In this document: piece after piece, positions 5,571 to 53,377 of the stretch
Numbering within the stretch: the stretch's first letter is position 1
How the letters are laid out: each line of letters begins with the position of its first letter
DNA from: Haladaptatus sp. QDMS2
GTDB lineage: Archaea; Halobacteriota; Halobacteria; Halobacteriales; Halococcaceae
Assembly: GCF_029338295.1 (NCBI RefSeq)
Contig: NZ_CP119793.1
Coordinates: 186,001-250,000, forward strand
Reading direction: 5' to 3'
Length of the DNA: 64,000 nt
Program-made: the position numbers and the translations under genes
Notes under the pieces: model-generated
Databases searched by the model: none
What the model saw: only the letters and a program-made list of their open reading frames with translations
Told to the model about the DNA's origin: nothing

Positions 5571-7376
5571 ATGACTCAGGATAAGCGACCGACGGAGCGA
5601 ATGCTGGACGAAATCGACGACGGGAACTACGTCATCCCGCATTTCCAGCGTGGCTTCGAGTGGGATCCCGGGATGGTCTGTGACCTGTTCGCCTCCGTCC
5701 TCGACGAGTACTACACTGGGACACTGCTCCTCTGGGATTTGGAATACTACAATGGGAGCGGCGAGATGTGGGACGTCGTCGAGGGCGTCCCCGAGGACCG
5801 GCTTGCTGACAGTCCGAACTACGCCATTCTCGACGGCCAACAGCGGCTCTCGTCAATTTACTACGCTCTTCACTCACCAGCGATGACCTTCCCCAGCCGA
5901 AAGTCGTACTACTACTTCTTCCTCGATATGGACGCGTGCCTTCGAGAGGAGTACGACGGGGCCGTCGAGTACGAGTACCGCCTCAATCCCCGTGATACGG
6001 CAGATTTCAAGAAGCGGCTACCAGAGCTACTGCCCGAGCAGGGTCTGTTTCCACTCTGCCTACTCCGAGACGCCGAGTTTCGGAATTCGGAGACCTTTGA
6101 GGAATGTCTCACAGCGTACCACGACCGGCGGAGCGAACGGGGACACCCGGTCTACGAGATGAGTCAGATGAACCTCTACCGGGAGTTCAACGGTATTTTC
6201 GATCGTATTCTGAACTACCGCTTCTCCGTCGAAATCCTCGACACGGCAAAGCTGGAGGAGGTTTGTGAGATTTTTACCCGAATCAACAAGAAGGGCATGA
6301 CGCTGTCGACATTTGACCTGATGAACGCATTCCTTTACCCGGAGGGCATCGCCCTCCGCAAGGAGTGGGACGAGCTTACGGGTTATGATCAGCTGAAGGC
6401 CGTCGACAACTCGATGAGCACGAACGTGCTGAAGACCATTGCGCTGCGCCGGCGTGAGTATTGCTCCTCGAAGTACATTTATCAGCTCATCCCCGGCACT
6501 GAAGTCGAGCGTCGGGACACTCCAGGAGAAAGCCGGATGGAAGTGCCCGTAGCGACCGTCGACGAGTTCCGCGAGTTATGGGATACCGCAATCGAGTACA
6601 GCGAGGCCGCCCGCCAGCGCATCATCAACACCGGCACGCACGACTTCGGTGCCATCAAGAATGGGTTCATTCCAAACACCACCACCTTGTCCGTGCTGGC
6701 CGCGCTCCTCTGGGAGTACGACGAGCGGCTCACCACGGCACTCGAGGAGCCTGAGTTCAACGATCGTCTCGTCCGCTGGTACTGGTCGGCGGCCCTCTCA
6801 CGGGACTACAGTGGCTCCTCTGACACCATCATGTCGCAGGACTACCGCGAGATGCGCACCTGGTTCGCCGACGACAGCGAGGTGCCCGAACGAATCCGAA
6901 CGGTGGACGAGGACTTCGTCTCGAACGCCCTCGACCTCCAGAGCGTCACGCAGGGTGGCCGATATAAGGCCATTCTCGGACTGTTCGGCCTCAACAACCC
7001 CAAGGACTTCCACACAGGCCGGCGGCTGGGAACGTACAACGCGTCACAGATAGACGACCACCACATCTTCCCGAAGAACGCGGAGGGGCTGTCGCTCACG
7101 GGCGAGCGTAAGCACTCGATTCTCAATCGGGCGCTCATCCTTGATGAGACAAACCGTACGGCAATCAGTAACCGCAAACCGAGCGACTACCTCCGGGACA
7201 TTGAGGCGACAGCGGACGAATCGGTCGAAGAGCGGCTCGCCGAGCACCTCATCCCTGCGGATGGCGTGGATGCACTCTGGAACGACGATTTCGACAGCTT
7301 CATTGATGCGCGAGAGCGGGCAGTGCTGGACGAGGTCCGGAGGCGCCTCGGGATTTCGGAAATCTACGGCAGGTGA
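5571..7376 (+). CDS. DUF262-DUF1524 fused restriction protein (GmrSD/type IV-like)
   Basis: 601 aa. The N-terminal DUF262 domain carries the hallmark DGQQR (residues about 88-92) preceded by PHFQRGFEW. DUF262 has a ParB/sulfiredoxin-like NTPase fold. The C-terminal DUF1524 domain carries DDHHIFPKN (about 495-503) with RALILDETNR and the NRKPSDYL tail, an HNH-type nuclease core. The fused arrangement is that of single-chain GmrSD type IV restriction enzymes, which cut DNA bearing modified bases such as glucosylated hydroxymethylcytosine. Related DUF262 proteins act with phosphorothioation systems. No modification genes for such a system are adjacent, so a stand-alone type IV role is favoured. 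The target modification is unknown. Confidence 0.85.
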   Translation: MTQDKRPTERMLDEIDDGNYVIPHFQRGFEWDPGMVCDLFASVLDEYYTGTLLLWDLEYYNGSGEMWDVVEGVPEDRLADSPNYAILDGQQRLSSIYYALHSPAMTFPSRKSYYYFFLDMDACLREEYDGAVEYEYRLNPRDTADFKKRLPELLPEQGLFPLCLLRDAEFRNSETFEECLTAYHDRRSERGHPVYEMSQMNLYREFNGIFDRILNYRFSVEILDTAKLEEVCEIFTRINKKGMTLSTFDLMNAFLYPEGIALRKEWDELTGYDQLKAVDNSMSTNVLKTIALRRREYCSSKYIYQLIPGTEVERRDTPGESRMEVPVATVDEFRELWDTAIEYSEAARQRIINTGTHDFGAIKNGFIPNTTTLSVLAALLWEYDERLTTALEEPEFNDRLVRWYWSAALSRDYSGSSDTIMSQDYREMRTWFADDSEVPERIRTVDEDFVSNALDLQSVTQGGRYKAILGLFGLNNPKDFHTGRRLGTYNASQIDDHHIFPKNAEGLSLTGERKHSILNRALILDETNRTAISNRKPSDYLRDIEATADESVEERLAEHLIPADGVDALWNDDFDSFIDARERAVLDEVRRRLGISEIYGR

Positions 7377-9780: not shown

Positions 9781-11784
9781 TCACCGGCCAACTTGACGTG
9801 TCAAGACGAAGACTACCAGCGCGAAGAAGAGCACACCCAGCCCTGTCTCGAGCGTCGCTATCACTTCACCAGCAGGACTCACGCTGAGTTGTCCGTATCC
9901 AAGCCCGGTGAACGTTGAGAGACTCAGAAGGAGGCCGAACAAAGGCGCGATATATCCAACCTCGAGGTACCCCACCGGCCCCAGATTAGTGTGTGTCAAC
10001 CCCATTGCAGGATAAACGAAGGGCATCACTCCAATGACGAGGACTGCCGTCCGCTTCACTAATCGTGAAAGCGACTCTCCGTAATCCGTCGTAATCTGGG
10101 AGAACCGGTTGATATAGAGTGGGACAGTCGCTCCCTGTTCGCGGTGGAAGCGTTGTTCGAGCTCTTTCCTGTTACGGAAGTAATGGGTAGCGAAATCGCC
10201 GAAGGCGTTGTCCCTCATGACTTGCTCGAGCGTGCCGTAGACGGACATCGCCTTCCGAATCGATGATGTTTGCGTAGTAGCAGTCTCGTGGACCTCGGCG
10301 TCGGAGCGCGGGTCATAATTGACGTACAAGTTCGAATTGATTTCAGCTAGGTTCTCTTCGGTGTTAATCTCATTGAACTCGGTTCCCCCTCCGATGCGTG
10401 CCGATTCGAGCATCGCCCCGTACATCGATGCGCCCTTGAAATCGGCGCGGAAGAGCTCGGTCTGATCGAACGCGACCCGTTCAACGTTCGCGTTGACGAA
10501 GCTAGCACCACTTGCCTTCGCGTCCGTGATTACCGCGTCGCTGATATCCGCACGGTCGAACCGAGTCTCGACGAGCCGAGCCCCGGAGAACCGCGCAGCG
10601 TCCAACCGGACGTCGCGTAAATTACCACCACTCAAATTAGCGTCGGTGAAGTCGAGCCCCTTGGCGTTCTGCGATTGTAAAACAATACTCTCGAGGTTTG
10701 CATCCTGGAACGATGCCTCGTCGAGGATTGCTTCCGTTAAATCGGAACCACTGAGATTGGCTTCGTCGAAGACGCTACCCTTGAGATTGCACATTCCGAA
10801 GGTCGTATCAGGGATGGAGGCATTCCTGAAGGAGACTTCCTGGAGGTTCGCGTCTATGAACCGTGCATTGGACAACGTCGCATGTTCGAAGGAAGCACCG
10901 GTCAGCGTCGCCCCATCTAACAAAGCGCCAGAGAGGTTCGCACGGTCGAAGCGAGCTCTCCTAAGAAACGTTCCGGTTAGGTCCGTACCCTCTAGTCGTG
11001 CGCCGCTCAAATCGACGCCCTCGAGCGTCGCCCGTCTGAGATTCGCATCGTCGAGGATGGCCCCGCTGAAGCGGCATTCCGCGAGATCCTCGGTCAGGGT
11101 CGCGTTCGTGAGGTTGGCGCCACGAAAGTCTGCCCCCTTGATTTTCGCGTAGGTGAAGTCCGCACCTTTCAGCTCTGCACCACGAAGATCCGCACCCTGG
11201 AGATTCGCGCCGCGGAAGTTCGTTCCGGCAAGCTCCGAGTAGGAAAGGTCAGCTCCACGAAGTTGTGCATCCTCGAGTTGCAAGGTTCCGAATGAGGATC
11301 CAGAGAAGTCCATTTTATCACCGATGATTTGCTCCCTGGATTTCGAAATTGCATGGAGCGTCAACGGCTCTTCATTGGAATTCTTCGTTTCCTCTGTCAC
11401 GCCATCGTCAGTCGAGGCGACGTCTGCGACCGTCTTGGAGTCATCAAGCATATCCAGGAGAATCTCGGCTTCGAACTCATCTTCCGGGGCACCACCTGCA
11501 GCGAGATCCTCCCTGCGCCAATCATTCTCGATTGGGGCAACCTTCAACGGGTAGTCGATATCGAATGGTATTTCGAACGATTCTTTGGAGTCGTCGGGTA
11601 TTGCGCCCGTCAACGCTGCAGAGATTGCAGCCACGAACGGGCCGACGATTTCTGCCGTATCAATACGGTAGACGATGAGTGGGTCGCCCGATTCGATATC
11701 CAGCGGCTCGGGATAGCGGAGCACCCCGTCTGCGATGGTCGTTTCGAGGAATGACTCGTCGCCAGGGAACACCCAGACGGTCAT
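9781..11784 (-). CDS. Pentapeptide-repeat protein with C-terminal two-TM pore domain, coupled to drmC
   Basis: 667 aa. Residues about 1-95 (VWVFPGDES..., GDPLIVYR, IVGPFVAA, DIDYPLKV) resemble a PUA-like EVE/DCD domain, a fold that reads modified bases. Residues about 158-470 are a long run of A(D/N)LxG pentapeptide repeats, forming a right-handed beta solenoid. The end holds a hydrophobic segment at about 576-596, a helix at about 608-628 followed by the filter-like TGLGYG, and a last membrane helix at about 640-664, as in two-TM ion channels (Ion_trans_2). It overlaps the drmC stop-start region by 4 nt (11781-11784), so it is part of the same minus-strand operon. A DISARM-linked membrane effector is inferred. 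The PUA-like call is the least certain part. Confidence 0.8.
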   Translation of the reverse strand: MTVWVFPGDESFLETTIADGVLRYPEPLDIESGDPLIVYRIDTAEIVGPFVAAISAALTGAIPDDSKESFEIPFDIDYPLKVAPIENDWRREDLAAGGAPEDEFEAEILLDMLDDSKTVADVASTDDGVTEETKNSNEEPLTLHAISKSREQIIGDKMDFSGSSFGTLQLEDAQLRGADLSYSELAGTNFRGANLQGADLRGAELKGADFTYAKIKGADFRGANLTNATLTEDLAECRFSGAILDDANLRRATLEGVDLSGARLEGTDLTGTFLRRARFDRANLSGALLDGATLTGASFEHATLSNARFIDANLQEVSFRNASIPDTTFGMCNLKGSVFDEANLSGSDLTEAILDEASFQDANLESIVLQSQNAKGLDFTDANLSGGNLRDVRLDAARFSGARLVETRFDRADISDAVITDAKASGASFVNANVERVAFDQTELFRADFKGASMYGAMLESARIGGGTEFNEINTEENLAEINSNLYVNYDPRSDAEVHETATTQTSSIRKAMSVYGTLEQVMRDNAFGDFATHYFRNRKELEQRFHREQGATVPLYINRFSQITTDYGESLSRLVKRTAVLVIGVMPFVYPAMGLTHTNLGPVGYLEVGYIAPLFGLLLSLSTFTGLGYGQLSVSPAGEVIATLETGLGVLFFALVVFVLTRQVGR

Positions 11785-12683
11785 CGCCCACCCACCGGGA
11801 GGTCGACCAATCGGGCGCTTGCGAACACCTCATCGAAAATCGTCGCGATATCGTCCACCGGTGGACCTTCGATAAGGACGCCCACCTCGAAGTTCGACCC
11901 CAAGCTCGTCGTCGTTAGGTTCGCGCTTCCGACGTAAGCGATGGAATCATCGACGACCATCACCTTCGCGTGGGTCGCCACCGCCTGTCTCCCTGATTCG
12001 TCGAGCTCGAACAGTTCACGGACGTCCAACAGCCGCCGGGCTTCCGCATCAAGTTCATTGTGCATCCGGTTGAATGTCGCCCTGTGGCTCGGCTCTGTCA
12101 CCTCGCGCGTCAAGATTTTCGTCACCGCCCCCTTCCGTGGGAGGCCGATGATGTCACCGATAATCCGTTGTTGTGGATCGAAGTACGGATTCGCGATACG
12201 GACCGATTCGCGAGCTTCAAGCAACAACCGACGGAGGCGCGATGGCAGCGGGCCCACGGTCTGACTCGCCAATCGGGTCACGGTCGTGCCGGGGGGGACC
12301 GTCGTCAACGTCTCGACCTGAGTCAGGTCGGACTCCAGGGGACCTTCGCTCTCGAGCGCTCTGACCGCGATTCGTTGCTGGGTCAGGACCTCGAGGACGC
12401 GATCCCGATTGAAGGCGTACTCCGAGTCGACGAGCGATCCACCCACGGCGACCCGGCTTGCAGCTTCGGTCTTCAACAGCCCGATTAAGACCGCTTCCTG
12501 TGCCCGTCTGCCGAGAGCCGAACCGCTCCGATTGAACACCGCTCGGCCGCTCGCAATCATTTCGTCCGCCGCCTCGAACCACTCTATGAGCGTCTGGATG
12601 GCCTCCTCGTCTCGAAGGGACCCTGCGATGGTGTAGTCATTACAGAGATTGTTGAACCGGTCCTGGGAGTGCTCAGCGACCAT
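11781..12683 (-). CDS. drmC: DISARM protein DrmC, phospholipase D-like
   Basis: 300 aa from the ATG at 12683, 4 nt after the drmB stop. An upstream in-frame ATG at 12731 would overlap drmB by 44 nt and is less likely. PLD-superfamily proteins use an HxK(x)4D motif. One copy is visible: HAKVMVVD in ATHAKVMVVDDSIAYVGSAN near residues 233-252, followed by NLTTTSLGSNFEVGVLI. The first half has only IANPYFDPQQR, without a full HKD, as expected for DrmC-type proteins, which carry a single PLD domain. DrmC belongs to the DISARM core but is dispensable in the characterised Bacillus system. Its place after drmA and drmB fixes the identification. Confidence 0.85.
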   Translation of the reverse strand: MVAEHSQDRFNNLCNDYTIAGSLRDEEAIQTLIEWFEAADEMIASGRAVFNRSGSALGRRAQEAVLIGLLKTEAASRVAVGGSLVDSEYAFNRDRVLEVLTQQRIAVRALESEGPLESDLTQVETLTTVPPGTTVTRLASQTVGPLPSRLRRLLLEARESVRIANPYFDPQQRIIGDIIGLPRKGAVTKILTREVTEPSHRATFNRMHNELDAEARRLLDVRELFELDESGRQAVATHAKVMVVDDSIAYVGSANLTTTSLGSNFEVGVLIEGPPVDDIATIFDEVFASARLVDLPVGGR

Positions 12684-12687
12684 GCGA

Positions 12688-14571
12688 TTAGATATCCCAG
12701 AAGGCCGGAACCTTTGCTCCATCCCCCACAAGAACGGTCCTGTCCAGTGTGTTGTTGAACGACTGGCAGGTGAACTCGCTCACGTGCATGCATGCGTGAC
12801 AGGCAGCTCCCGACTCGTCTTCGATGCATGCGGGATCGTAGATACACTGGACGGCGTGCTTCTTCGCCTCGTCGACCCAATCATGGAGGCGGGTCTTGAA
12901 CAGGGTGAACATCCCGCCGAGAGCGAAATGCTCCATGCTCTCGGCGTAGAGGATAATGGATGGTACCGTCGGGAGGATGAGCTCCGAGATGCTGTCGGAA
13001 TCCAACCCACACTGCTGGCTGGCGGTCGACATCAGTGCATGGCTCATCGTATGGAGCAGCTGGTACACTTGCTCGGTCATCTCGTCCTCAATCGGTGTGA
13101 ACGGGTTCTGCAGCTCCGTCGGGTCGATGTTCTCGAGGAACCAGGTCTTGAGTGCGACCTCGTCTTCGAGGTCGGGTGCGTTGGCTCCGTTCAGCACGCC
13201 AGCATCGAGCAGCCACTCGATGATAGCCTTCCTATCTATCTCGAGGACGATAGCCTCCGATGGCGATCGATCGCCGTACGCGGTCAGCGCATCGCTCGAG
13301 GCGGACTTCTCGAACGCCTTCAGGTCGACCTTGCTCGCCTGGATGTCGTCTCTGGTGTAGCCGAAAACCACTGAGAGCAGTGGGAAGCTGTCGACAATCC
13401 ATGCGTCAGACACGTTGATACTTCGCAGTCGTTTGCGGTAGAGTCCGGCCTGGCGGTACTTTCGCTCGAACTTTGGATCGTCGACGTAATCTGAGAGTGG
13501 ACGCGGGACCGGATGGCGGTTCACGTTCCTGACGTGCTGGCGCGGTCCTTCGTACCCCTCCGTCGAGCGGATGAAGGTGAAGAGCTCGTGGGCGATATGC
13601 GAAAACCGCGTCGAGTCGTTCGGCAAATCTACCCTCGTTTCGTTCTTTTTCGCTATCTCCACACGGCCAGGAAGCCCGGTCTGTGCGCTCCCGAGCGCGT
13701 CGAGGATGTCATCAGCAACGTCAGCAGGCACCTCTTTGAGGCGGTCTTCGATACCTGCCAACTGCTCGCCATCGATACCGCGTCGCGTCGCGACCGATTC
13801 GAGGGTGATGCCTTCCTGGTTCAGGTCGAGTAACCCAAGGTGCGCATGCATTAGCACCCGCGCCCACTCGTCGTTGAAGACGAGATCTCGAGCCTCCGGT
13901 CCCACGGGTGGAATCTCGACCATCACCTCCCGCTGTGGGTAGTAGACCGAACCGCTCTGAAGCGGGCTGGCCTCGCTGACGTACTCCGAACACCCGCTAC
14001 ATGGGCCGGTCAAGGATTTAATCTTCTGGCGGCACTTCCGACACCGGAACTCGAAGGTGTTGACGTTGTCTGGATCCCCACGCTTCAGAAAGACGTCTTC
14101 CCAACCGTGGCCAGGCTTATCACACGCTTTCGGCATAATGTTCGAGACCGCCCCACAGTCATGGGTCAAGACCCATTGCAGCTGGTGTAACTCGCCTTCA
14201 CTACACCGGGTACAGGTTCCCTTCGTCGACGCGAGGTGCTTGTGGTTCTTTGGGTTGAACACCGCGTTGCACTGTCGACACACCATCGTCATTGGGAAGA
14301 GGTCGCCCTGGACCTCCTTGGGTCGGTAGATATCGATGGCCGCGTTCTCGATGTCGTTCCACGGCTTCTCGTCGCTGTTGCGGAACTCCTTGACAGCGCC
14401 GGCGATGCGTTTCATCACCCGCTTCTCGTCGACGTTCTCCATGCGGTCGACCTTCCAGTCATCGACCTGCATTGAGAAGCCCTCGCGCCCGTAGCTGAAC
14501 AGTGCGCCAGGCGTGAACGAACTGAGTACTTGTGCGATTCCACGCCGCATCTCCGCATTACTATTATCCAT
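12688..14571 (-). CDS. drmB: DISARM protein DrmB (DUF1998)
   Basis: 627 aa. DrmB works with the DrmA helicase in DISARM. Two zinc-binding CxxC clusters lie in the N-terminal third (CRQCNAVF...CTRC near 97-120, CRKCRQ...CSGC near 175-195). The C-terminal DUF1998 signature is intact: CIYDPAC, then AACHACMHVSEFTCQSFNN and LDRTVLVGDG (residues about 577-620). The ATG shares one base with the drmA stop (TGATG), so drmA and drmB are translationally coupled. The gene sits between drmA and drmC in the usual DISARM order. Confidence 0.9.
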   Translation of the reverse strand: MDNSNAEMRRGIAQVLSSFTPGALFSYGREGFSMQVDDWKVDRMENVDEKRVMKRIAGAVKEFRNSDEKPWNDIENAAIDIYRPKEVQGDLFPMTMVCRQCNAVFNPKNHKHLASTKGTCTRCSEGELHQLQWVLTHDCGAVSNIMPKACDKPGHGWEDVFLKRGDPDNVNTFEFRCRKCRQKIKSLTGPCSGCSEYVSEASPLQSGSVYYPQREVMVEIPPVGPEARDLVFNDEWARVLMHAHLGLLDLNQEGITLESVATRRGIDGEQLAGIEDRLKEVPADVADDILDALGSAQTGLPGRVEIAKKNETRVDLPNDSTRFSHIAHELFTFIRSTEGYEGPRQHVRNVNRHPVPRPLSDYVDDPKFERKYRQAGLYRKRLRSINVSDAWIVDSFPLLSVVFGYTRDDIQASKVDLKAFEKSASSDALTAYGDRSPSEAIVLEIDRKAIIEWLLDAGVLNGANAPDLEDEVALKTWFLENIDPTELQNPFTPIEDEMTEQVYQLLHTMSHALMSTASQQCGLDSDSISELILPTVPSIILYAESMEHFALGGMFTLFKTRLHDWVDEAKKHAVQCIYDPACIEDESGAACHACMHVSEFTCQSFNNTLDRTVLVGDGAKVPAFWDI

Positions 14572-17500
14572 CAGTGGCCACCTTCTTTGAACGACTCCAC
14601 GACGACGGTGGAGTACCGGTTCGGAATGATGTCGATTTGTTGGTCGATATCCCGGAGGCTATTCATCGGCCCGTGCTCGTCCTCGGCGTCACCCGTCACC
14701 ACATTCGCGATGAACTCCTCGCGGGGATCCTTCCCCAGGGGATCTTCGACCAGCCGGTCCCACACTTTATCGAACTGATCTTTGATGCGCTCACGGTAGA
14801 GGTTTATCCCGTGAACGTCCGACCACTCTTGTTCCTGTTCCTCCGTAACCGAGTAGGCCCGCTTGATAAACTCGAGGGCGTCCTCGCTGGTGATAAGGTC
14901 ACGGTCTAGGGCTTCGTTGTACCCCTGGAATTGGTAGAGCGACTTCTCGGTCTGCCCTTCGAACTCGTGATGGTAGTACTGGAGGAACAGCCCGACTATG
15001 AGTCCGGGCATTGTCCGGTCGATAGCGAATTGGGCCCATCGCTCGAGCGGAGTCGCCTCGACGAGTAGGTCCTGGTAGCGGTGGTAATGTTCGAACTTTG
15101 TGTAATGCGAGCGATCTCGAGCGCGAATCGCGTCGAAGAGGACGAACACTGTCCCAGGATACCTTCGACCGACGCGTGAGTACGCCTGGATGTACTCGGC
15201 AGTGTTCCGAGGCATCCCGAAGAAGGAGATGAAGTTCAGCTTGTCGATGTCTACACCGTGTGAAATCATCGACGTCGCGATGACGATATCGATAGGCCGA
15301 TCGGGATTGTCAGATTCCAACCGCGCTAGCGCGTCGCGGACCACGTCCATGTCTGTCTCTCCCGTAAGGGGGACCGATTTGAGTTCGTGATAGGGCTCGC
15401 CGTACGCCTTCAGCTGCTCGTTGAGCATCTGGTTGACGTTACGCTGCAACATATCACTCTTCGTCTTCGCGATGTTGTAGTTGACCTGTACCTCATACAT
15501 TCCGAGCAATTTTTGGTAGATGTCCTTGCGCTCAGCCACGTCCGTGGGCAGGTCGAGTGGACCACCGAGTTGTGATTCCGGAATCTCCGCGAGCGCAGCA
15601 TCCAGTCCGTCAAGGTCATCAGATTCCAAATCTCCCTGGAGTTCCTGGACGAGCATTGCCCGTTCGCGGATGATGGAGTTGATGGCCAAGGTTCGCGAGA
15701 TGGTCCGAGGTATCGCCCCAACCATTCGACGCCCGAGTTGATATGGATCTTCGTACGCATAGAAGGACTGCCGCAGCCGCGGCCCCTGTGTCGGGAAGAC
15801 GTTCGTGTCCCGCCAATAGAGCGCGTTTACCTGTGACGAAGCTCCCTTGATGGTCGCGGTCGCCGCCACGATTTTCATCTGCCACCGGCCGTCAGTGTAG
15901 CGGTTCACCAACTCTTGGATGAACGTCTCGTAATGAGAATCGAACGCACCAAATTCCTCCCGGAGCAGGTGCAGCTCGTCTTGGATGAGTATGGATGGCG
16001 GATCTACAGGCTCTACCGGAGTCAAATCGGCGCTGTCGCATCGGAGCTTTTTCGGGTAGGAGTTGTCGGCCATGAAGCACTCCTCCTCGCTGGTGAGGCC
16101 GTGCTTCTGGCAGCGATGCTTGACGCGACCGAAGAGCGTCCGCATCCTGCGCTGCCAGCCGACGATGGCGATTTTGTCGATGGTGCTCACCACGAACGTG
16201 GGAGCGTGACGGTAGACCTCCTCGTCGGTGATGTAGATGGGTAGCTCTGCTGTCTTACCACCCTGGTGTTGCACCTCTGGGCACTCAGGGTTCTCGCACT
16301 GATGGATGATTCGCATTCGCTCCAAGTCGCCCGTGACCGAGACCGTCTCGTCAGCGTCGCAGTACGGACAGTCCTGGACCATCAGCCACTCCTGTTGCTT
16401 GTCAGGGTCGTCCCTTGCCTCCTTGACGTAGTTCGTGTCGCCTCCACGATCGCTCATCGAGTAGGTCTTGTTCGGCGTGTTGTTCCGACCGACAAAGTAG
16501 CCGACACTGAACGATTCACCTGCCATCGCCGAATCGTCCCGGCGGATAGTTTCGGCCATGCAGAGGACGTCGGCGATGCGCTGGAGTTGTTGCAACGAGA
16601 GCAGGCGCAGTGGGAACTTCGTGAGCGCGGTCATCCCGAACTCCTTCCCCCGGAGGCGGTCGTAAAACGCCGCGAAGACAACCAATCCAAGGTATGCTTC
16701 GGTCTTCCCACCACCAGTCGGGAAGTAGATGACGTCACCGACATTGAGCGCATCAACGATATCCCGCTCTGGGTCTGCTTGCGCGACGATATCCGGGAGC
16801 GTCATGACGATGAAGACGATTTGGAAGAGCCGCCATTGCACGTAATCTTCACCCATCTCGGTGAAAGTCTCGTTCAGCGCGCGGAACGCCTTCTCAACCT
16901 GTGGGTCGTTCGCGATGAGTTCACGCCCCTGATGGAACCGCTCTCGTTCGGCAGCAAAGTCCCTGAGCGTCTTCTGGTACTCCTTCTGTGCCGCCGACGT
17001 TTTGCCAACCAGTATGTCATCTTCGAGATTTTCGTACTGCTCGTAGGCCGAGTCCATTTCAGCTTCGATGTTCGCGAGGACGCCATCAATGTCCCCATGT
17101 GCCAATTCGCTGAAGGGCGCGTCAACGGTCTCTCGGGAGTGATACTTCGGCTGCTCATATACAGGGACAGTGGTCGTCTGAAGACCGGTGACCGGATTCT
17201 TGCTCATACGCTCGACCGCGCAGTTCTCACCGATGGCGTAAATGTTCCCGTCGTACTGGTAGTGATCTCGAATCTCCTCGGATGGGAAGGATTTGAACAA
17301 TGGCGACCCGGCCTCGACCCCGAGAGTGACATCGAAGAGGTAGGACTGCCAATCCTCGTCGGGTTCCTCTGAGTTTGGATAGTCTTCACCGAAGCCGTTG
17401 ACGAGCGAGACCGAGACGGCTATTCGTCCGTCGTCACGCTGGCTGGCGGTGATTCGGAGGTACGCCGTCCACTCGACGGGTTTGGGCGTCTCGGAGAACA

Positions 17501-18278
17501 CCTCCTCGAGATGTGCCTCGAACGATGGTTCGTCGGTAAGGCTCTCCGCTGGAACAGAGTCGGCCTCCCAGCGTTCGACACCATCTGTGGATTCGCAATA
17601 GACCCGCTCGGCTCCGTGGTACGCCTCTCGCGCCGCCTGTAACTGATTGGTTATATCGTAGTGTAGCCGTCGGTCGCGTTTGGCGGCGTCACGAATCTCC
17701 GCCCCAGGGACAGAGATTGGTTCAATGGACGGCGATAGCCGCTCGAACACCCTCAGGAGGTTTTGTTCATCGTAGGTGGCGGTCCCTCCATCTGCGTGGA
17801 CCTCCCGGTCCTCGTTCGTCACCGCGAGTTCGCCATAGGAAGCCTCCTCCAATTCCCCGTATCGGAGTTGCTCCTCGTATTTAGGATAACGACGGTAGAA
17901 GAGCTTTAGATTGGGTTGGAACTCGAACTCTGCGTCGTCGAGCTCGTCGGAATCGACCTGGAACGTCAGCCCAAGCGAGAACGGTGCGACATCTTGGCCG
18001 AAGTTCTGGAAGCTATCGTCCTCTGCTTGCGCCTTCCGGAAGCGATACTGACTCGCAACAACGCCGGCGAAACATCGACGACTCGGTGTGTTCCCGTAAA
18101 GCGTCTGTTGCTCTGGTCCTCGTCCCGTAATCCGGTCGATTAACCGTCCTGTAATGACATGGTCCATCGCCTGATGGCGACGGTACTTGGTATCCCCCTC
18201 TGTATCGAACGCCTCTTCGGGTGGTCGGGTGTACTCTGGATCGTTCCGAGGTGGAATTGAATCGAAACGTGGTTTCAT
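14571..18278 (-). CDS. drmA: DISARM helicase DrmA
   Basis: 1235 aa superfamily 2 helicase, the DNA-engaging core of DISARM. Motifs seen: Walker A FPTGGGKTEAYLG (about 518-530), motif II QDELHLL (about 763-769), motif III AATATIKG, and the C-terminal RecA lobe with IATSMISHGVDIDK and AYSRVGRRYPGTV (about 1010-1040). A CPYCDAD...CENPEC insert between lobes suggests a zinc site. The first 450 residues are a large family-specific region. The gene lies 82 bp downstream of the drmE-like gene and overlaps drmB by one base. Its length and motif set fit DrmA, and it is the most secure DISARM marker here. Confidence 0.92.
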   Translation of the reverse strand: MKPRFDSIPPRNDPEYTRPPEEAFDTEGDTKYRRHQAMDHVITGRLIDRITGRGPEQQTLYGNTPSRRCFAGVVASQYRFRKAQAEDDSFQNFGQDVAPFSLGLTFQVDSDELDDAEFEFQPNLKLFYRRYPKYEEQLRYGELEEASYGELAVTNEDREVHADGGTATYDEQNLLRVFERLSPSIEPISVPGAEIRDAAKRDRRLHYDITNQLQAAREAYHGAERVYCESTDGVERWEADSVPAESLTDEPSFEAHLEEVFSETPKPVEWTAYLRITASQRDDGRIAVSVSLVNGFGEDYPNSEEPDEDWQSYLFDVTLGVEAGSPLFKSFPSEEIRDHYQYDGNIYAIGENCAVERMSKNPVTGLQTTTVPVYEQPKYHSRETVDAPFSELAHGDIDGVLANIEAEMDSAYEQYENLEDDILVGKTSAAQKEYQKTLRDFAAERERFHQGRELIANDPQVEKAFRALNETFTEMGEDYVQWRLFQIVFIVMTLPDIVAQADPERDIVDALNVGDVIYFPTGGGKTEAYLGLVVFAAFYDRLRGKEFGMTALTKFPLRLLSLQQLQRIADVLCMAETIRRDDSAMAGESFSVGYFVGRNNTPNKTYSMSDRGGDTNYVKEARDDPDKQQEWLMVQDCPYCDADETVSVTGDLERMRIIHQCENPECPEVQHQGGKTAELPIYITDEEVYRHAPTFVVSTIDKIAIVGWQRRMRTLFGRVKHRCQKHGLTSEEECFMADNSYPKKLRCDSADLTPVEPVDPPSILIQDELHLLREEFGAFDSHYETFIQELVNRYTDGRWQMKIVAATATIKGASSQVNALYWRDTNVFPTQGPRLRQSFYAYEDPYQLGRRMVGAIPRTISRTLAINSIIRERAMLVQELQGDLESDDLDGLDAALAEIPESQLGGPLDLPTDVAERKDIYQKLLGMYEVQVNYNIAKTKSDMLQRNVNQMLNEQLKAYGEPYHELKSVPLTGETDMDVVRDALARLESDNPDRPIDIVIATSMISHGVDIDKLNFISFFGMPRNTAEYIQAYSRVGRRYPGTVFVLFDAIRARDRSHYTKFEHYHRYQDLLVEATPLERWAQFAIDRTMPGLIVGLFLQYYHHEFEGQTEKSLYQFQGYNEALDRDLITSEDALEFIKRAYSVTEEQEQEWSDVHGINLYRERIKDQFDKVWDRLVEDPLGKDPREEFIANVVTGDAEDEHGPMNSLRDIDQQIDIIPNRYSTVVVESFKEGGH

Positions 18279-18360: not shown

Positions 18361-21300
18361 TCAGTTCTCGGTAACGTCGATGACCGCTTTGACGACATAG
18401 CTGGTCGAATGTTGGAGAATCATTTCACAGTCGTCACCTCCTTCGGTGAGCGTCTTCGCGACGTGCTCTCTGATTTCACTCCCTTGATGAATATGTGCAC
18501 CGCGAATCTTCCTAAGTCCAGCGTCGATGAGATTGCCGTTCGAGCCCTTCAATGCGGGCTTATCGAACGCCTTGCCGATGAGTTGGATATCCTCGACGGC
18601 CCGGGGCCCCATCGTCAAACTCGGGTCTCGAGCCAGCTCGAGAGCGTCGTTGGCGATGGCGACGCTCTCGAACCAATCGCGAACCCTGACCGAACTACGA
18701 TCGATACCGACACTTCTCGCTTCCCCGATTATGTAGTGGTAGACGACGGTCTCGGTGGGTTCATCGGCGCCGACCTCCTCCTGAATCTCCGTCAGTATCT
18801 CAGAGATTGTATCGTACCACGTCCGCAACTGGTCGGTCACCCTACCGCCTTCTATATCCGCGTAACGCTCATCGAGCCATTCGTCCCAGAGCTTGTTCCA
18901 ATACCATGAATCAATCTCGAGGATAGTCGTCCCTTTGGAGAGCTCGGCTGGCGAACGCCACCCGTACTCTGTCTCGACATCTTGCCAGTGAGCGATACGC
19001 TCCTCGACGAGCAACCTCGTCCCAGATTCCCGGTGGAGCGTCTCGCCATCCTCGGTCTCGATATCGAAGTCCTGGTGGACGTAATCGTCGTACCGACTGG
19101 TGTCGTGGTCGAACTCGCGACCGAAGCGAGAGTTATCAAGGTGCTCAGAGAGACGGTCCTCGAGCGAATCAGCTTCTTCCGCCACCCGTGAACCTGACTC
19201 TTCCTCTACCCGTCCTTCGAATCCATCCGTATCTGCATCTTCCGTGGCCTCCTCACCTTCGGACCGATTAGAGACGGAAATCTCCGGATATGGTAACAAC
19301 GCGGAATCGGTCACCTGGAAGGCAGCGTTGATTCGGTCGATGAACTGGTGGAGGCGGTTTTGGAGGTTCTTTTTATACCGACCTTCGTAGGTCAATATCG
19401 TCACATGCTCTGCGTTCGGATGCACGAGACACCCAATGTGCTGTTTACGCTGCGGCCCGGCGATGAGCAATTCATTGCACCGGTCGATGTCGCGAACTGA
19501 TTCGCGGTCGGTCACCTGGACCTTGTTTCCAAGAGTGTGTCGGAACAGTGCCTTGTCCTCGAGAAGGCGTTCCATGAGAGTATGACGCCACGCCGGTGTA
19601 GGCGTGAAAATCCCGAGCGAACGATGTTCGGTGACGGCAGCTTCGACACGGTCGCGGATTGCATCGTAGAGTTCGTTCCGTTCATCAAGTGCTAGGAGGA
19701 GGCGCTCCAATTGCTCGTGGACGTCCGATGCGCCGGCACGAGTCATCATATCTGCGTTCGAAACGAAGGAACCGAACTCGTCGACGAACTCACCCATCGT
19801 CCAGGATTGTCGACCTCGTTTCCCCCGTCGACGTTTGTCCAGGACCCACCTATCGTAGTAATCCGCGGGGACAGGCAAGCGCTCGAATCGCTTCAGGTAC
19901 GAATATGACTTCCACCCACCGAGCTCAGCGCCGTTCTCGACGAGGAACATCGCCGCTTCATTAGCATCTTCGAACATCGGTATCAGCCGTTTCGCATCGA
20001 TTGCGTCAATCCGAATTTCTTTTTCCGTCGCTAGGGCCTCGAGTTCAGCATCGCTCGACAACGGGACCGGTGATTCCGGACGATAGACACCGTCCCCATC
20101 GACTACAGACCGTACCGCTTGGGTTCGGGGAAGCACATCGACCTCCGACAAATCAGGTGGGAAGTACTCTGGAACGCGGTTCTCACCGTGTTCTTGCTTC
20201 GTGTAGATGCTGTAGATAGGACAGACGAGCTGGTCCCTATCGACCTCGTCGACGACTCCCTCTTCTTCTGCTGTGACCCGAGAATGAAAGTTGAAGAGTA
20301 TGGGGCCGCGGTCAGCGATTACCTCGAGTTCAGTGTCTCGCGACACGAGGACGAGGTTGGCGATACCCCCGTCTTCATTGCAGCGGTGTTCGCCGTCGTA
20401 GACGAAACTATGTGGGAATAGCTCCTCGAGCGGCTTGTGCCCCCCATTTGAATCCACACGGAACCGACCCGGAATATCGATGCCATATCGCCTATATTCT
20501 TCTCGAATCTGTTTTTTACCACCCCAATGGGAGGTCGTTCCTTTGGTATAGAGGATGGTATCTTGTCCCTGGAGTGAGCTTTCCAGAAGGACTTCGATGG
20601 CGAGGGGGAGCACGATTTGCGGTTGAAAGCCAGGCCAGAGAATGGGAACCGTCCGACCCTCTTTCGTCGCCTTCCGCAGACCGCTCATCATGGACGCTCC
20701 AAGTTCGCCGACCGAGACAGGCTTCCAGTCGCCTCTTTCTTCGTAGCGGAGCACCTCGAGCGATTCTGCCAACCAACTGTATGCTGGCTGGCCACCAGTT
20801 GACTCGAGTAACGCTTGGAGGTACGATTCCGCATCCTCGGCGATTGCAGCCGCGTAGCGGAGGATGACGACCACGGCCTTGCAGCCGACCTCGTCGGTCT
20901 CGACAGCGAGTTCGGCGACCGGGGCTAGGTTCCCGGACAACAGCGATGGTGCGTGTGTAGAGATGGGCGTGAGGAGCTCGAAAGATTTCTTCTGGACGGT
21001 AGTATCGTCGCTCTCGAGCCACTCCAGTGCCTCGGACATCGCGTTCTTCACAGCGTCGATTCGGGTGTCGGAGCGCAACATGGCGTCGAGGCCGTTGGCC
21101 GCTGCCTGAATTAACTCTGGGCTCGAGTCCGGGGACACGTCAATAGCCTCGACCAACGTGGTTTCTGACAGCTCGCTTCCAGCCTCCGTCGCCAGAATTT
21201 CTACGAACGCATCGACCGCGATATCACCGTTCGGAGATTCGAGTAAATCGAACAGTTCAGTTTCCCATTCAACGACTAACATCGGATGATGCTTGGCCAA

Positions 21301-21795
21301 CAATCGGAGCCCATCGCCAGTACTCGAATCTGATGGCACGTCTTCGGCCAGCAGGTTTTGAATCAGGGTTTCCGTGGCGATTTCGAGACCACGCTGTATC
21401 TCGGCCGCTGCAGCCCCGTATATCTCCTCGTGACGTTCATGAATCGCTTCGATAGCATCGAACCGGCCAGATGCTCCGAGTGCACATGCGACCGGCCCGG
21501 AGTCGCCACATGAATCTGAGTCGAAATAGCGAAGTATCGGATCGAACGCTGAATCCGGCAACGACCTGAACGCCGTAGGGTGATAGCTGGCGAGTTTCGA
21601 AATCGCCTCGATGCTCTTCAGCTTCCACATCGCATGGGTACCGCCCATGAACTCGAGTAGGTCCGGAAGAACCTCCTTTGCGGTCTCCTTCGAGATGGTC
21701 TCGTTCGCAAGGGTTTCTAGGGCATCGTATCGCGGCTGGTACTCATCGGAGCGAAGCGCCTCGATGAGTCGATCTTCCGAGTTGGTCGCACTCAT
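18361..21795 (-). CDS. Large DrmE-like protein with N-terminal HEAT-type repeats, DISARM operon leader
   Basis: 1144 aa. The first about 350 residues are short paired helices (ALETLANETI, VLPDLLEFMG, AVDAFVEILA) typical of HEAT/ARM solenoids. The middle (about 385-800, with TVPILWPGFQPQIVLPLAIE, DTILYTKGTTSHWGG and LVLVSRDTELEVI) has no Walker motif but looks like a folded alpha/beta region. An acidic linker at about 840-880 precedes a C-terminal region with RVRDWFESVAIANDA and LIGKAF. Class 2 DISARM carries drmE, a protein of unknown function, next to drmA. Position and size support that identity, but I could not confirm family membership from sequence alone. It is the first gene of the minus-strand operon drmE-A-B-C-channel. 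Confidence 0.65.
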   Translation of the reverse strand: MSATNSEDRLIEALRSDEYQPRYDALETLANETISKETAKEVLPDLLEFMGGTHAMWKLKSIEAISKLASYHPTAFRSLPDSAFDPILRYFDSDSCGDSGPVACALGASGRFDAIEAIHERHEEIYGAAAAEIQRGLEIATETLIQNLLAEDVPSDSSTGDGLRLLAKHHPMLVVEWETELFDLLESPNGDIAVDAFVEILATEAGSELSETTLVEAIDVSPDSSPELIQAAANGLDAMLRSDTRIDAVKNAMSEALEWLESDDTTVQKKSFELLTPISTHAPSLLSGNLAPVAELAVETDEVGCKAVVVILRYAAAIAEDAESYLQALLESTGGQPAYSWLAESLEVLRYEERGDWKPVSVGELGASMMSGLRKATKEGRTVPILWPGFQPQIVLPLAIEVLLESSLQGQDTILYTKGTTSHWGGKKQIREEYRRYGIDIPGRFRVDSNGGHKPLEELFPHSFVYDGEHRCNEDGGIANLVLVSRDTELEVIADRGPILFNFHSRVTAEEEGVVDEVDRDQLVCPIYSIYTKQEHGENRVPEYFPPDLSEVDVLPRTQAVRSVVDGDGVYRPESPVPLSSDAELEALATEKEIRIDAIDAKRLIPMFEDANEAAMFLVENGAELGGWKSYSYLKRFERLPVPADYYDRWVLDKRRRGKRGRQSWTMGEFVDEFGSFVSNADMMTRAGASDVHEQLERLLLALDERNELYDAIRDRVEAAVTEHRSLGIFTPTPAWRHTLMERLLEDKALFRHTLGNKVQVTDRESVRDIDRCNELLIAGPQRKQHIGCLVHPNAEHVTILTYEGRYKKNLQNRLHQFIDRINAAFQVTDSALLPYPEISVSNRSEGEEATEDADTDGFEGRVEEESGSRVAEEADSLEDRLSEHLDNSRFGREFDHDTSRYDDYVHQDFDIETEDGETLHRESGTRLLVEERIAHWQDVETEYGWRSPAELSKGTTILEIDSWYWNKLWDEWLDERYADIEGGRVTDQLRTWYDTISEILTEIQEEVGADEPTETVVYHYIIGEARSVGIDRSSVRVRDWFESVAIANDALELARDPSLTMGPRAVEDIQLIGKAFDKPALKGSNGNLIDAGLRKIRGAHIHQGSEIREHVAKTLTEGGDDCEMILQHSTSYVVKAVIDVTEN

Positions 21796-22437: not shown

Positions 22438-23910
22438 TTAGTTTCGATTCGATAATGAATCGATACAGTCTCGTAGAAACTGATATTCCGAGAAGAGCTG
22501 GTTTGCCCCGCGAACAGGGTCAGTCAAGGTAGATCCATCACTCATCGTGTGAATAATCGGGTTGTAGTGTGCCACAGAATTTCGAAGATGAACCAAATCA
22601 CTGAGCTCAATTTCATACCCTCGAATATCACGCTTAATCTCGGTTTGCAAATCATTGCTCTCTACAAGTTGTACGAGCTGATCAAGCCGTCCACATGCAA
22701 GCTTATCAGGGTATAGAGACCTATCACCGCGATAGCGAATCGAAACATTTTGATCATCTTCCCAATTCGGGAGGTGCTCTCTGATTAAGCTGCGTAAACC
22801 GATTTCGAATTCTGAAAACAAGTCAAACAGATGGAGATAGACTGGTAAGCTGTTGAGATCGAATCGTGTGACGATACCTTCAATATCTTCATTCGAGCCA
22901 ACGAAGCGAAATCGTTCCTGACTTAATTCGTCGATAACTTCTCTTATCGATGCGGTCGGTTGTAGAAGATTGTGCGAAAAGAGTGGTTCAACGATATCAC
23001 CAATCGTTACGCCGTCGTCGATGCGGGTCCCTTCTCGTGAGATATACCCTTGAAGACCGGTTCGTGTAGCTGCGTTTTCGAAGACGAGAGCAGCATCGAA
23101 ATCATGACATATCATATCGAGGAAGACATCGGCAATCCGTTGGTCAACCTCGTACCCGTATGGATTCAGGGTCATCATCGATGTAATGTCCAGTTTGGGG
23201 TTCGACTCATCCAATCGCCCCATCAGATTTCGCTCTTGTTCTGATGGGTTGTAACGATGCAATCTATTTCCATCAGATGTAGTCAGTTCATTCGAGATGA
23301 CTGTTAGCAGTCTCGGAGATTCATGCAAATGGGCCTCAAGATTGATTTCTTCTATCGCTTCGGTCCGATAATAGAGGAGCTTTCGAAGAGGGGCAGCAGA
23401 TTCATTCGTTTTGAGTTCGTTTGAAGTCAACACTACCGCCCGACCAGACTCGCTTAATCGACGGAGTATTTGCTCGATGTACAGGAAATCTGAATCGACT
23501 GGTGAAGCATCCTCATCGGTTATCAGTGCGGAGTTTATCGCATAATCTCGCCGTGTTTCCTTATCTAGGTCGTCCCAAGGGATATGAGTTGGTGAACAGA
23601 TGATATAGTCAAAATCCAATTCAAGATTGACTCCTCCACGGAAAAAATCATCTTCAATTATCTCTATGTTGTTTTTATTCCGGTAACTGTCACATATTTC
23701 ACTTAGCTGACCTTCATCTTGCCCGAAAACGTATCCATTCGGCACACTCCATGACGCGTTCTCTTCACAGAGACGGTCTACTGTATCGATGAGTGTGCCA
23801 TCTGTACATCCGAGATAGAGAATATTATCGAATTTTGTTGGGTAGGTTCCTCTGAAGAGATATTGGACCATCGCCTCCGCAATGGAATCTGGAATCGGTT
23901 CGTCAATCAC
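22438..23910 (-). CDS. Predicted degenerate methylase - CBS pair - HEPN RNase fusion
   Basis: 490 aa with three parts. Residues 1-230 look like a Rossmann methylase: LYLGCTDGTL (31-40) in place of motif I, IIEDDFF, then IICSPTHIPW (103-112) where N6-methylases have NPPY, so catalysis is probably lost. Residues about 265-357 read as a tandem CBS module (ALVFENAATRTGLQGYIS, SIREVIDELS, EGIVTRFDL), a fold that binds adenine nucleotides. Residues about 358-487 are helical and contain LRNSVAHYN with R443-x4-H448, the HEPN RNase motif. An abortive-infection role, with CBS sensing a nucleotide and HEPN cutting RNA, is inferred. It stands alone on minus between the DISARM and AddAB blocks. Confidence 0.65.
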   Translation of the reverse strand: MIDEPIPDSIAEAMVQYLFRGTYPTKFDNILYLGCTDGTLIDTVDRLCEENASWSVPNGYVFGQDEGQLSEICDSYRNKNNIEIIEDDFFRGGVNLELDFDYIICSPTHIPWDDLDKETRRDYAINSALITDEDASPVDSDFLYIEQILRRLSESGRAVVLTSNELKTNESAAPLRKLLYYRTEAIEEINLEAHLHESPRLLTVISNELTTSDGNRLHRYNPSEQERNLMGRLDESNPKLDITSMMTLNPYGYEVDQRIADVFLDMICHDFDAALVFENAATRTGLQGYISREGTRIDDGVTIGDIVEPLFSHNLLQPTASIREVIDELSQERFRFVGSNEDIEGIVTRFDLNSLPVYLHLFDLFSEFEIGLRSLIREHLPNWEDDQNVSIRYRGDRSLYPDKLACGRLDQLVQLVESNDLQTEIKRDIRGYEIELSDLVHLRNSVAHYNPIIHTMSDGSTLTDPVRGANQLFSEYQFLRDCIDSLSNRN

Positions 23911-31648: not shown

Positions 31649-32497
31649 TCAAAAATCGTTAAATGTTTTCTGTCTATTGGTTCCTGTGAATTCTTTCGAG
31701 GATTGTAAGTTCGATATTTCCCATAGTTCGTCTAGTTGGATACCCGAGGCACCACCTCGCTTGCAAGGAGGGAGTCCGGTTGATTCATGTAACACCTCTA
31801 ACATCGCCCCAGACTTAATAGTCCAGCCACGTCTCTCTGCATATTCGTTGAATGGATGATTTCCCGGTGCAACGAGGGCACTCCGCGATGAATTCTCGGG
31901 GTTTTCCTTGTCGAATCCACCTCCATGTTTCGGACACGTACCCAGAAACTCGGTATGTCGCTCGCTGGGTGACTCTCTTTGCTGTACTTTCTCCTGGATT
32001 GTTTTGAAGTCTGCTTGAATTTGCTTTGAACGCTCTTCAGATGGTTCCCAGATATTGTGCCAAATGATAGGGAAGTTCGCGCGGTTCTCCCCTTGTAGGT
32101 GAAGATACCAGATGATGAGCAATCGCTGTAGTTTCTTCTCCAAGGCGGGGACCTCTGTCCAATGGTCGGCTTTCACGATGTCTCCATAGTCGACCATACT
32201 AAGGACCAGACGTTCCTTCGGGCGGACTAGTTTTCCCCCTCCAGTTGTCTTCAGTGGTGTGACCTTAAGTTCGATTCCTGCTTGTTCAAAATCGGGAGCT
32301 TGGTCACTGTTAATCTGGATTCCGAAGTAATCCTCCTCAATAAGATTCGCAACAGCCATTTTCGAGCGGTGTCGTTCTGAGTTGGCACGACCGTGGATTG
32401 ACTCGCTAATTTCCTGAAGGGTTTTTCCGAGCAGGGCATCTGACGCTGCTTTTATCTCGTCCTCATTTGCATTCCTTCCGAGAGCCGGGTTAACCAT
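31649..32497 (-). CDS. MutH/Sau3AI-family restriction endonuclease, copy 1
   Basis: 282 aa. The catalytic signature of the MutH/Sau3AI fold is intact: an upstream Glu (NLIEEDY, about 54-55), then D69 in APDF, E76 and K78 in GIELK, so D-x6-E-x-K. These enzymes cut GATC-type sites, nick or double strand, depending on modification. The sequence continues with LVLSMVDYGDIV and a TCPKH motif also found in copy 2. It lies 171 bp downstream of pglZ on the same strand but has its own upstream gap. It is a paralogue of 51025-51876 on the other side of BREX. The recognition site is inferred only from the family. Confidence 0.82.
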   Translation of the reverse strand: MVNPALGRNANEDEIKAASDALLGKTLQEISESIHGRANSERHRSKMAVANLIEEDYFGIQINSDQAPDFEQAGIELKVTPLKTTGGGKLVRPKERLVLSMVDYGDIVKADHWTEVPALEKKLQRLLIIWYLHLQGENRANFPIIWHNIWEPSEERSKQIQADFKTIQEKVQQRESPSERHTEFLGTCPKHGGGFDKENPENSSRSALVAPGNHPFNEYAERRGWTIKSGAMLEVLHESTGLPPCKRGGASGIQLDELWEISNLQSSKEFTGTNRQKTFNDF

Positions 32498-51024: not shown

Positions 51025-51876
51025 TTATTGAGAGAAGTCGGAGAGACCGGATTGTCCTTGACTATCCCCAGTCAAGAACGTCTCAACCTCGGATGCATCG
51101 GTCGCACGTTCTTTCGACCTGGCCCATAGAGCCTCCTTCTTCACGTACTCAGACCGTCCCTTGGGAACGATTTCGAGGTTCGCATCATCAGCAAGCATGC
51201 GAAGAAGGAATCGAGATGGGATACGCCAGCTACGGCGTTCCGGCTTCTCCAGATGCGGGTGTCCACTGTTCACGACGTACGAACCTGGCTCTCGGTTCGG
51301 GAAGTCGTAGTTGTGCTTTGGACAGGTCTGGAGGATGTCGTTCCCGGCCTTCGTTTCACTCAGGTGTTCGCCCTCGAGAATCTGCTGGCGAATCGTTTCG
51401 TACTCAGCCTGAATCTGCTCGTCGAGGTCTTCAGATGGAGACCAGTGTTGCCACCAGACAAAGGGGAATTCACTCCGGTCGCCACCGTCATGATGGAACC
51501 AGACGACGAGCAGGTTCAGAAACTTCCTGTCGAGTTTCTTGATATCTCGCCAGTACTCGGTTTCAACGACTTCCGCATAGTCAATCATCCCAACACTCAG
51601 CGGTTCCTTCGGGTAAAAATAATCGCCGTACGACGTCTTCAGTGGCTTACACTTGAGCTCGATTCCCTCCTTCCGGAAATCAGGTGCAGGATCATTGTCG
51701 TTGGCCATCCCGTAGTAGATTTCTAACAGCTCCCCAAGTTCGCCTTTTACCTTAGTGGCCTCAGCGTCGATGAACCCTTTCTCAACGATGTCACCGAAGT
51801 TTTGCCCCAAGAGAGCGTCTGATGCGGCTACTATCTCTTCGTAAGAAGCGTCGCGGCCGATAGGTCCCATTTCCAT
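51025..51876 (-). CDS. MutH/Sau3AI-family restriction endonuclease, copy 2
   Basis: 283 aa from ATG 51876, chosen because GGAG lies 8 nt upstream and copy 1 has the same N-terminal length; the frame stays open to 51942. The catalytic triad is D66 (PAPDF), E73 and K75 (GIELK). Shared marks with copy 1 are the ASDALLG N-terminus, KPLKT, and TCPKH. The gene is convergent with brxHII and divergent from the C5 methylase at 52074, forming a nuclease-methylase arrangement like Sau3AI with its cytosine methylase. Site specificity is unknown; GATC is the family precedent. Confidence 0.84.
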   Translation of the reverse strand: MEMGPIGRDASYEEIVAASDALLGQNFGDIVEKGFIDAEATKVKGELGELLEIYYGMANDNDPAPDFRKEGIELKCKPLKTSYGDYFYPKEPLSVGMIDYAEVVETEYWRDIKKLDRKFLNLLVVWFHHDGGDRSEFPFVWWQHWSPSEDLDEQIQAEYETIRQQILEGEHLSETKAGNDILQTCPKHNYDFPNREPGSYVVNSGHPHLEKPERRSWRIPSRFLLRMLADDANLEIVPKGRSEYVKKEALWARSKERATDASEVETFLTGDSQGQSGLSDFSQ

Positions 51877-52020
51877 GATTACTTCTCCAATTTTCAAGGG
51901 GAAATAACTTATCAATATACAGTCATTTAATTCCACTATCAATCAGATTGGAATTATCACCTTCCAGTCATTTCCACTCGATAAAAATTACACCAATCAT
52001 ACATTCTTGAGCGATGCATT

Positions 52021-52043
52021 CAACGTTGCAAAACTAAACGTTG
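52021..52043. promoter_or_regulatory. Repeated CAACGTTG/AACGTTG boxes before a methylase gene
   Basis: CAACGTTG (52021-52028) is a perfect 8-bp palindrome. AACGTTG recurs at 52037-52043, 16 nt on, just before the methylase start at 52074. The spacing is compatible with an operator used for autoregulation between the nuclease and methylase genes. No controller protein gene was found next to it. Confidence 0.35.
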
Positions 52044-52073
52044 AAACCCGATGACGTCGCACTTTCAATAAGA

Positions 52074-53285: not shown

Positions 53286-53377
53286 ACGTCAACGAAAGTG
53301 TAATTTCTCGCACCTCGGACGGGTGAAATCGGTATCGGATCGAAAGTTCTTAATGCGAAGACGAACGAGAATGGTGT

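Follow-up and report, generated by a model that had tools for sequence, protein, structure and literature searches.

A pentapeptide-repeat protein with a potassium-channel-type pore module, a candidate gated pore, is encoded in the DISARM operon of one haloarchaeal branch

The sequence analyzed here, a window of 64,000 nucleotides from Haladaptatus sp. QDMS2 (NZ_CP119793.1, positions 186,001 to 250,000), contains on its reverse strand a DISARM operon with the gene order drmE-like, drmA, drmB, drmC, PRP-channel. The components shared with other DISARM systems are the YprA-type helicase DrmA (14571 to 18278; PADLOC DrmA, E 0), the DUF1998/MZB protein DrmB (12688 to 14571; PADLOC DrmB, E 1e-171), and the PLD nuclease DrmC (11781 to 12683; PADLOC DrmC, E 7e-54; Pfam PLDc). 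The PADLOC matches span most of each of these proteins, drmA and drmB are adjacent, and the DrmC motif HxK(x)4D(x)6GSxN, read in the sequence, is intact (HAKVMVVDDSIAYVGSAN). The operon resembles class 2 in having a DrmE-like gene encoding 1144 amino acids (18361 to 21795, reverse strand), which matches NCBIfam DrmE_fam (E 3e-11) and PADLOC DrmE (E 8e-4), although the DrmE_fam score of 42 bits falls under the 80-bit cutoff; orthologs of this gene adjoin drmA in L033/L102 and L034/L103. No clear methylase gene was recognized within the operon. What sets the operon apart from DISARM as it is known is an extra membrane gene at its end, which is referred to here as PRP-channel (9781 to 11784, reverse strand) and is an open reading frame that begins with ATG and encodes an EVE-like/pentapeptide/pore protein of 667 amino acids. 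Its start overlaps the drmC stop in the sequence ATGA, as a first-pass annotation of this DNA had described for a 4-nucleotide overlap, and because of that overlap the interval given there (9781 to 12683), while covering the PRP-channel gene, also takes in drmC. The overlap is confined to the window; the orthologous genes are separated from drmC by about 70 to 100 nucleotides.

Several genes near the operon are candidates for association with it. A 490-amino-acid protein (22438 to 23910, reverse strand) with weak methyltransferase and CBS matches, the former in its N-terminal part, is a possible additional operon member, and a homolog with 37% identity adjoins drmE in Halomarina (L102:830-2284). 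By eye, this protein has SPTHIPW where NPPY is expected, and its C-terminal end is HEPN-like. Two C5-cytosine methyltransferases of 414 and 621 amino acids (52041 to 55243, forward strand), about 30 kb from the operon, are candidate DISARM methylases acting in trans, and their homologs (73% and 53% identity) lie directly 3' of the PRP-channel gene of Halorubellus (L032). The 414-amino-acid enzyme was considered as DrmMII and rejected, as its best PADLOC class is MTase_II (type II methylase), so the tie of these methylases to DISARM is an inferred one. The interval between the DISARM operon and the methylases (24206 to 50939) encodes an AddAB-like helicase-nuclease pair, a Sau3AI/MutH-like nuclease, and a BREX type 5 system with PglZ_5 (E 1e-243), BrxA, and, judged by eye, two BrxC-like ATPase genes. 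Two nucleases of the Sau3AI/MutH family (31649 to 32497 and 51025 to 51942) stand on either side of the BREX genes, the second adjoining the two cytosine methylases. On the opposite strand, 2.4 kb past the 3' end of the PRP-channel gene, is a gene for a 601-amino-acid protein (5571 to 7376) that resembles the phage defense candidates PDC-M55C and HEC-05 in PADLOC.

The central part of PRP-channel, residues ~158 to 470 (10375 to 11313, reverse strand), is a pentapeptide-repeat solenoid (Pfam PF00805, E 1.3e-63), of about the length of 300 residues that had been proposed for it. Hydrophobic residues occupy 45 of the 62 central repeat positions, compared with 20 (maximum, 29) in 2,000 shuffles, and the structural model of the solenoid, with pLDDT values mostly above 90, matches HetL with a Z score of 29.1. 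The Pfam match, the HetL score, and the shuffles all agree with A(N/D)LXX repeats that form a right-handed solenoid. The best fold matches are HetL and solenoids of the Qnr/MfpA type, and the net charge is -17 across 313 residues. Following the solenoid, residues ~505 to 565 form helices with a conserved KAxSVYxTLE motif.

The N-terminal domain, residues 1 to ~125 (11410 to 11784, reverse strand), is acidic and is predicted to adopt the EVE/YTH fold of the PUA superfamily, a prediction supported by structural modeling and fold searches. The AlphaFold2 model, built from an alignment of three sequences, has a pLDDT of 76 and a pTM of 0.69. Foldseek matched it to VcaM4I (EVE-HNH), PH1033 (probability 1.00, E 0.026), Atu2648, and many YTH domains. 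In VIA the 50 matches listed comprise YTH domains along with PH1033 and MJECL36, which are of the EVE type, and have Z scores of 9.5 to 10.9, compared with a stated background for models without a match of 7 to 8 at the top and 4 to 5 at rank 50. The first-pass annotation was therefore right about a PUA/EVE-like fold at the N terminus but too short in its estimate of 95 residues. The domain has a predicted fold in common with the EVE/YTH readers (PH1033, the VcaM4I EVE domain, and the YTH m6A readers) but no sequence match to them: Pfam gave nothing up to E 10, EVE and YTH included, a PDB profile search returned chance hits only, and a PF01878 search of the genome from which the window derives had no match. 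Besides M1-T2, the only residues invariant in the ortholog alignment are W4, D34, G48, F50, and L113. No conserved aromatic pocket is visible in that alignment, and the pocket residues of the VcaM4I EVE domain, P24, W82, and Y130 (PMC7897488), have no clear conserved counterpart in it.

The C-terminal part, residues ~571 to 667 (9784 to 10074, reverse strand), is assigned by homology to a two-helix pore module (M1, pore loop, M2), in which the loop FTGLGYGQ at residues ~625 to 632 is flanked by two hydrophobic helices. Pfam Ion_trans_2 matches this C terminus by itself at E 0.003, under the cutoff, and matches a related family member at E 4e-16. A profile of the four orthologs found beside DISARM returned weak PDB matches (best E 0.03), nearly all of them K+ or NaK channels. 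The best of these are the KcsA entries 5ebl and 5ebm, which are T75G structures. The module thus has the helix, P-loop, helix ancestry of Ion_trans_2, and the two membrane helices and TGLGYG loop noted in the first-pass annotation belong to a pore homologous to canonical K+-channel-type proteins. Structure prediction of both ends of the protein, which that annotation had recommended, yielded the PUA-like N-terminal domain and a pore region of low confidence (pLDDT 31 to 56), so the pore assignment rests on homology. Basic residues lie ahead of M1 and past M2, which by the positive-inside rule would place both termini inside the cell.

The selectivity filter departs from that of K+ channels. 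In all four DISARM-linked orthologs it reads TGLGYG, and the next residue is Q in two of them, P in one, and R in one. Most relatives outside DISARM have TTLGYGD or minor variants of it, and in a few (L013, L016, and L020) the loop is degenerate. The K+-channel signature TxGYG(D) is accordingly replaced by GLGYGQ/P/R, with loss of both the S4 threonine and the aspartate; aligned with TTVGYGD of KcsA, T75 is a glycine and D80 is lost. In KcsA, either T75C or T75G eliminates the S4 site, and T75A lowers conduction, while alanine mutants at the equivalent position are nonselective in NaK2K and MthK and remain selective in Kv1.5 and Shaker (PMC11251424). With neither the S4 threonine nor the aspartate behind GYG, the DISARM-linked pore is likely to be poorly K+ selective. 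The change is equally compatible with a weak or a dead pore. One alternative explanation is that the module does not conduct and serves as a membrane anchor or scaffold, tethering the solenoid, and through it DrmAB, to the membrane, the point of entry of viral DNA. The absence of the two signature residues fits this explanation, as do the solenoid, a typical docking surface, and the degenerate loops in the three relatives, from which it follows that loss of the filter need not abolish the fold. FTGLGYG is invariant, however, in four proteins of which the others are only ~33 to 41% identical overall to that of the window, and invariance at such low identity suggests a working loop. We regard an anchor as unlikely, though it is the most serious of the alternatives.

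The distribution of the gene was examined in a set of 391 haloarchaeal genomes, 112 of which have a match to the C terminus of PRP-channel at a threshold of E 1e-5. Up to 20 kb was retrieved around 20 of the best matches. The top three non-self matches, in Halorubellus salinus (G239), Halomarina rubra (G156), and a third genome (G101), lie directly 3' of drmC, and the domain order next to drmABC that the first-pass annotation suggested looking for is therefore present in three other archaeal genomes. At the other 17 loci no drm genes were matched within the stretch retrieved. A comparison of coordinates by eye found no further C-terminal matches close to DrmB in the 391 genomes; DrmB itself has a match in 51 of them, and PRP-channel is beside it in 4. 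Among 392 genomes of the order, an overlapping draw, the four DISARM-linked proteins scored between E 1e-78 and 1e-88 and all others 1e-30 or weaker, a gap that is somewhat inflated because the profile was built from the linked proteins. One further, weaker relative, with no match to the N-terminal domain, came from 393 genomes across the phylum. When the C-terminal alignment was used to scan contigs of 84,980 species, just two loci came back, both already known; this pattern scan missed the G101 locus, meaning either that its recall is limited or that the G101 genome is outside the set. No relatives were found in viral contigs, and in plasmid records the matches fell mostly in the repeat region, none reaching 80% coverage of the query.

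In phylogenetic trees, the DISARM-linked channel proteins form one clade (99/99) and the DrmB proteins of the same four loci form one clade (92/90), each with one label change, and the G101 locus is outermost in both. The channels are more diverged from the protein of the window (33 to 41% identity) than are the DrmB proteins (51 to 69%). Since the channel and its DrmB partner each form one clade, the simplest reading looks like a single gain followed by coinheritance with DISARM; the gene is missing from G037 and G216, whose DrmB proteins branch next in the tree. On this comparative evidence the association with DISARM is not a matter of chance, in keeping with the operon membership first proposed from the overlap. 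Because it occurs in only 4 of 51 DrmB-bearing genomes, PRP-channel is an accessory of one haloarchaeal DISARM branch and not part of DISARM generally. The first-pass annotation had counted a location mainly away from DISARM against its proposal; this is true of the wider pentapeptide-channel family, which was away from DISARM at every other locus checked, but not of the orthologous clade. The abundance of that parent family (112 of 391 genomes) and its lack of DISARM elsewhere would also suit a housekeeping or stress K+ channel that sits in the operon by chance and has no role in defense. Such a passenger is improbable in view of the four-genome linkage, the single clades of channel and DrmB, the ATGA overlap, and the confinement of the filter and N-terminal changes to the DISARM-linked clade. 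Least probable is that the solenoid, like MfpA and Qnr among its best fold matches together with HetL, mimics DNA or binds a partner to restrain DrmAB while the membrane part only sequesters it, since its charge seems, in our judgment, low for a haloarchaeal DNA mimic and the conserved filter loop would be left unexplained.

Other haloarchaeal DISARM loci carry variable genes of their own. The slot 3' of drmC holds an HNH nuclease, DUF262-like proteins (judged by eye), or the channel (variable-slot loci L083:12271-12927, L085:12450-14747, and L088:11265-13478). In G172 (L107:6654-8813) the place of drmC, 2 nucleotides past drmB, is taken by a gene for a 719-amino-acid membrane protein that weakly matches DUF2254. 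This is a second case of a membrane gene in a DISARM-like operon of haloarchaea, and the gene is unrelated to PRP-channel. Beside DISARM in several haloarchaea is a trio of genes encoding ~630 to 680, 340, and 230 to 270 amino acids, of which the first is PDC-M33A-like and the third is DUF6339/PDC-M33C-like (L033:1905-5700, L103:1715-5600, and L083:15156-18791); gene sizes suggest many more.

Haloarchaeal pentapeptide-repeat ion channels (Ion_trans_2 plus Pentapeptide) share the order solenoid, linker, and pore with PRP-channel and are ~25 to 34% identical to it over the aligned part. Many of the unlinked relatives have a Cys/His N terminus (C..C..C-x-[FW]-H), although several loci were too short to include the N terminus. 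The DISARM-linked clade has neither this motif, which is absent from all four proteins and replaced by the EVE-like domain, nor the usual filter of the family. The nearest known effector is HalA of the Hailong system, which is described as a defense ion channel that poly-dA adducts of HalB block (PMC13275509). In both HalA and PRP-channel, a pentapeptide stretch precedes the C-terminal pore; PRP-channel differs in its extra EVE-like N-terminal domain and its DISARM operon context. The NCBIfam HalA model NF051894 aligns to the solenoid and pore (pore alone, E 1e-4), with a score of 44.8 bits compared with an equivalog cutoff of 250. HalA is absent among the PDB fold matches listed for the PRP-channel model, and no HalB nucleotidyltransferase was recognized among the immediate neighbors (drmC, drmB, drmA, and drmE on one flank and the genes that were tested on the opposite flank). 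Orthology to HalA was rejected on the score and the partner gene, and because unlinked pentapeptide channels also match the HalA model, the likeness is one of kind.

At a probability of roughly 0.55, our main reading is that PRP-channel is a lineage-specific DISARM accessory that acts as a gated membrane pore with an architecture like that of HalA. The cytosolic N-terminal domain and solenoid would recognize the activated DrmAB(E)-nucleic acid complex or its DNA products, or dock onto them, and the helical linker would relay the signal to a tetramer of two-helix subunits, opening the pore. Given the probable low K+ selectivity of the pore, its opening may depolarize a cell in which K+ is abundant inside and Na+ outside, and so arrest growth and stop virus production while DrmAB and DrmC attack DNA. 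Unmethylated DNA stimulates the ATPase activity of DrmAB, with 5' overhangs preferred (PMC9142583), and class 1 DrmA has an EVE-like domain of its own (PMC12458937); on these grounds it is plausible that this class 2-like operon would carry an EVE-fold sensor separately, on a pore. Several points count against a gated-pore effector. The published DISARM work consulted reports no membrane arm, and ARMADA, which is related to DISARM, acts without abortive infection (PMC12458937). To these are added the restriction to 4 of 51 genomes, the absence from G037 and G216, the low confidence of the pore model, and the losses in the filter.

The more specific proposal, of a DISARM branch with a second, membrane arm in which an EVE-fold nucleic acid sensor drives a pentapeptide-coupled K+-channel pore that has lost its selectivity, is put forward tentatively, as a possibility short of even odds. 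If it is true, recognition of foreign DNA leads both to its destruction and to depolarization of the cell, and the haloarchaeal family of pentapeptide K+ channels has given rise, independently of Hailong, to a channel gated by DNA or by a complex. DISARM and HalA-like channels are two known kinds of system, and it is their joining in the PRP-channel operon that is new; a literature search for DISARM with pentapeptide repeats or channels found nothing relevant. The uniform filter change also provides a set of naturally altered K+-channel filters for selectivity tests. DISARM is described as a DNA-targeting system in which DrmC is dispensable (PMC9142583) and the effector step is unsettled. A conserved, coinherited pore gene would link one DISARM branch to membrane effectors like HalA, and its presence 3' of drmC suggests that this site serves as an interchangeable slot for effectors.
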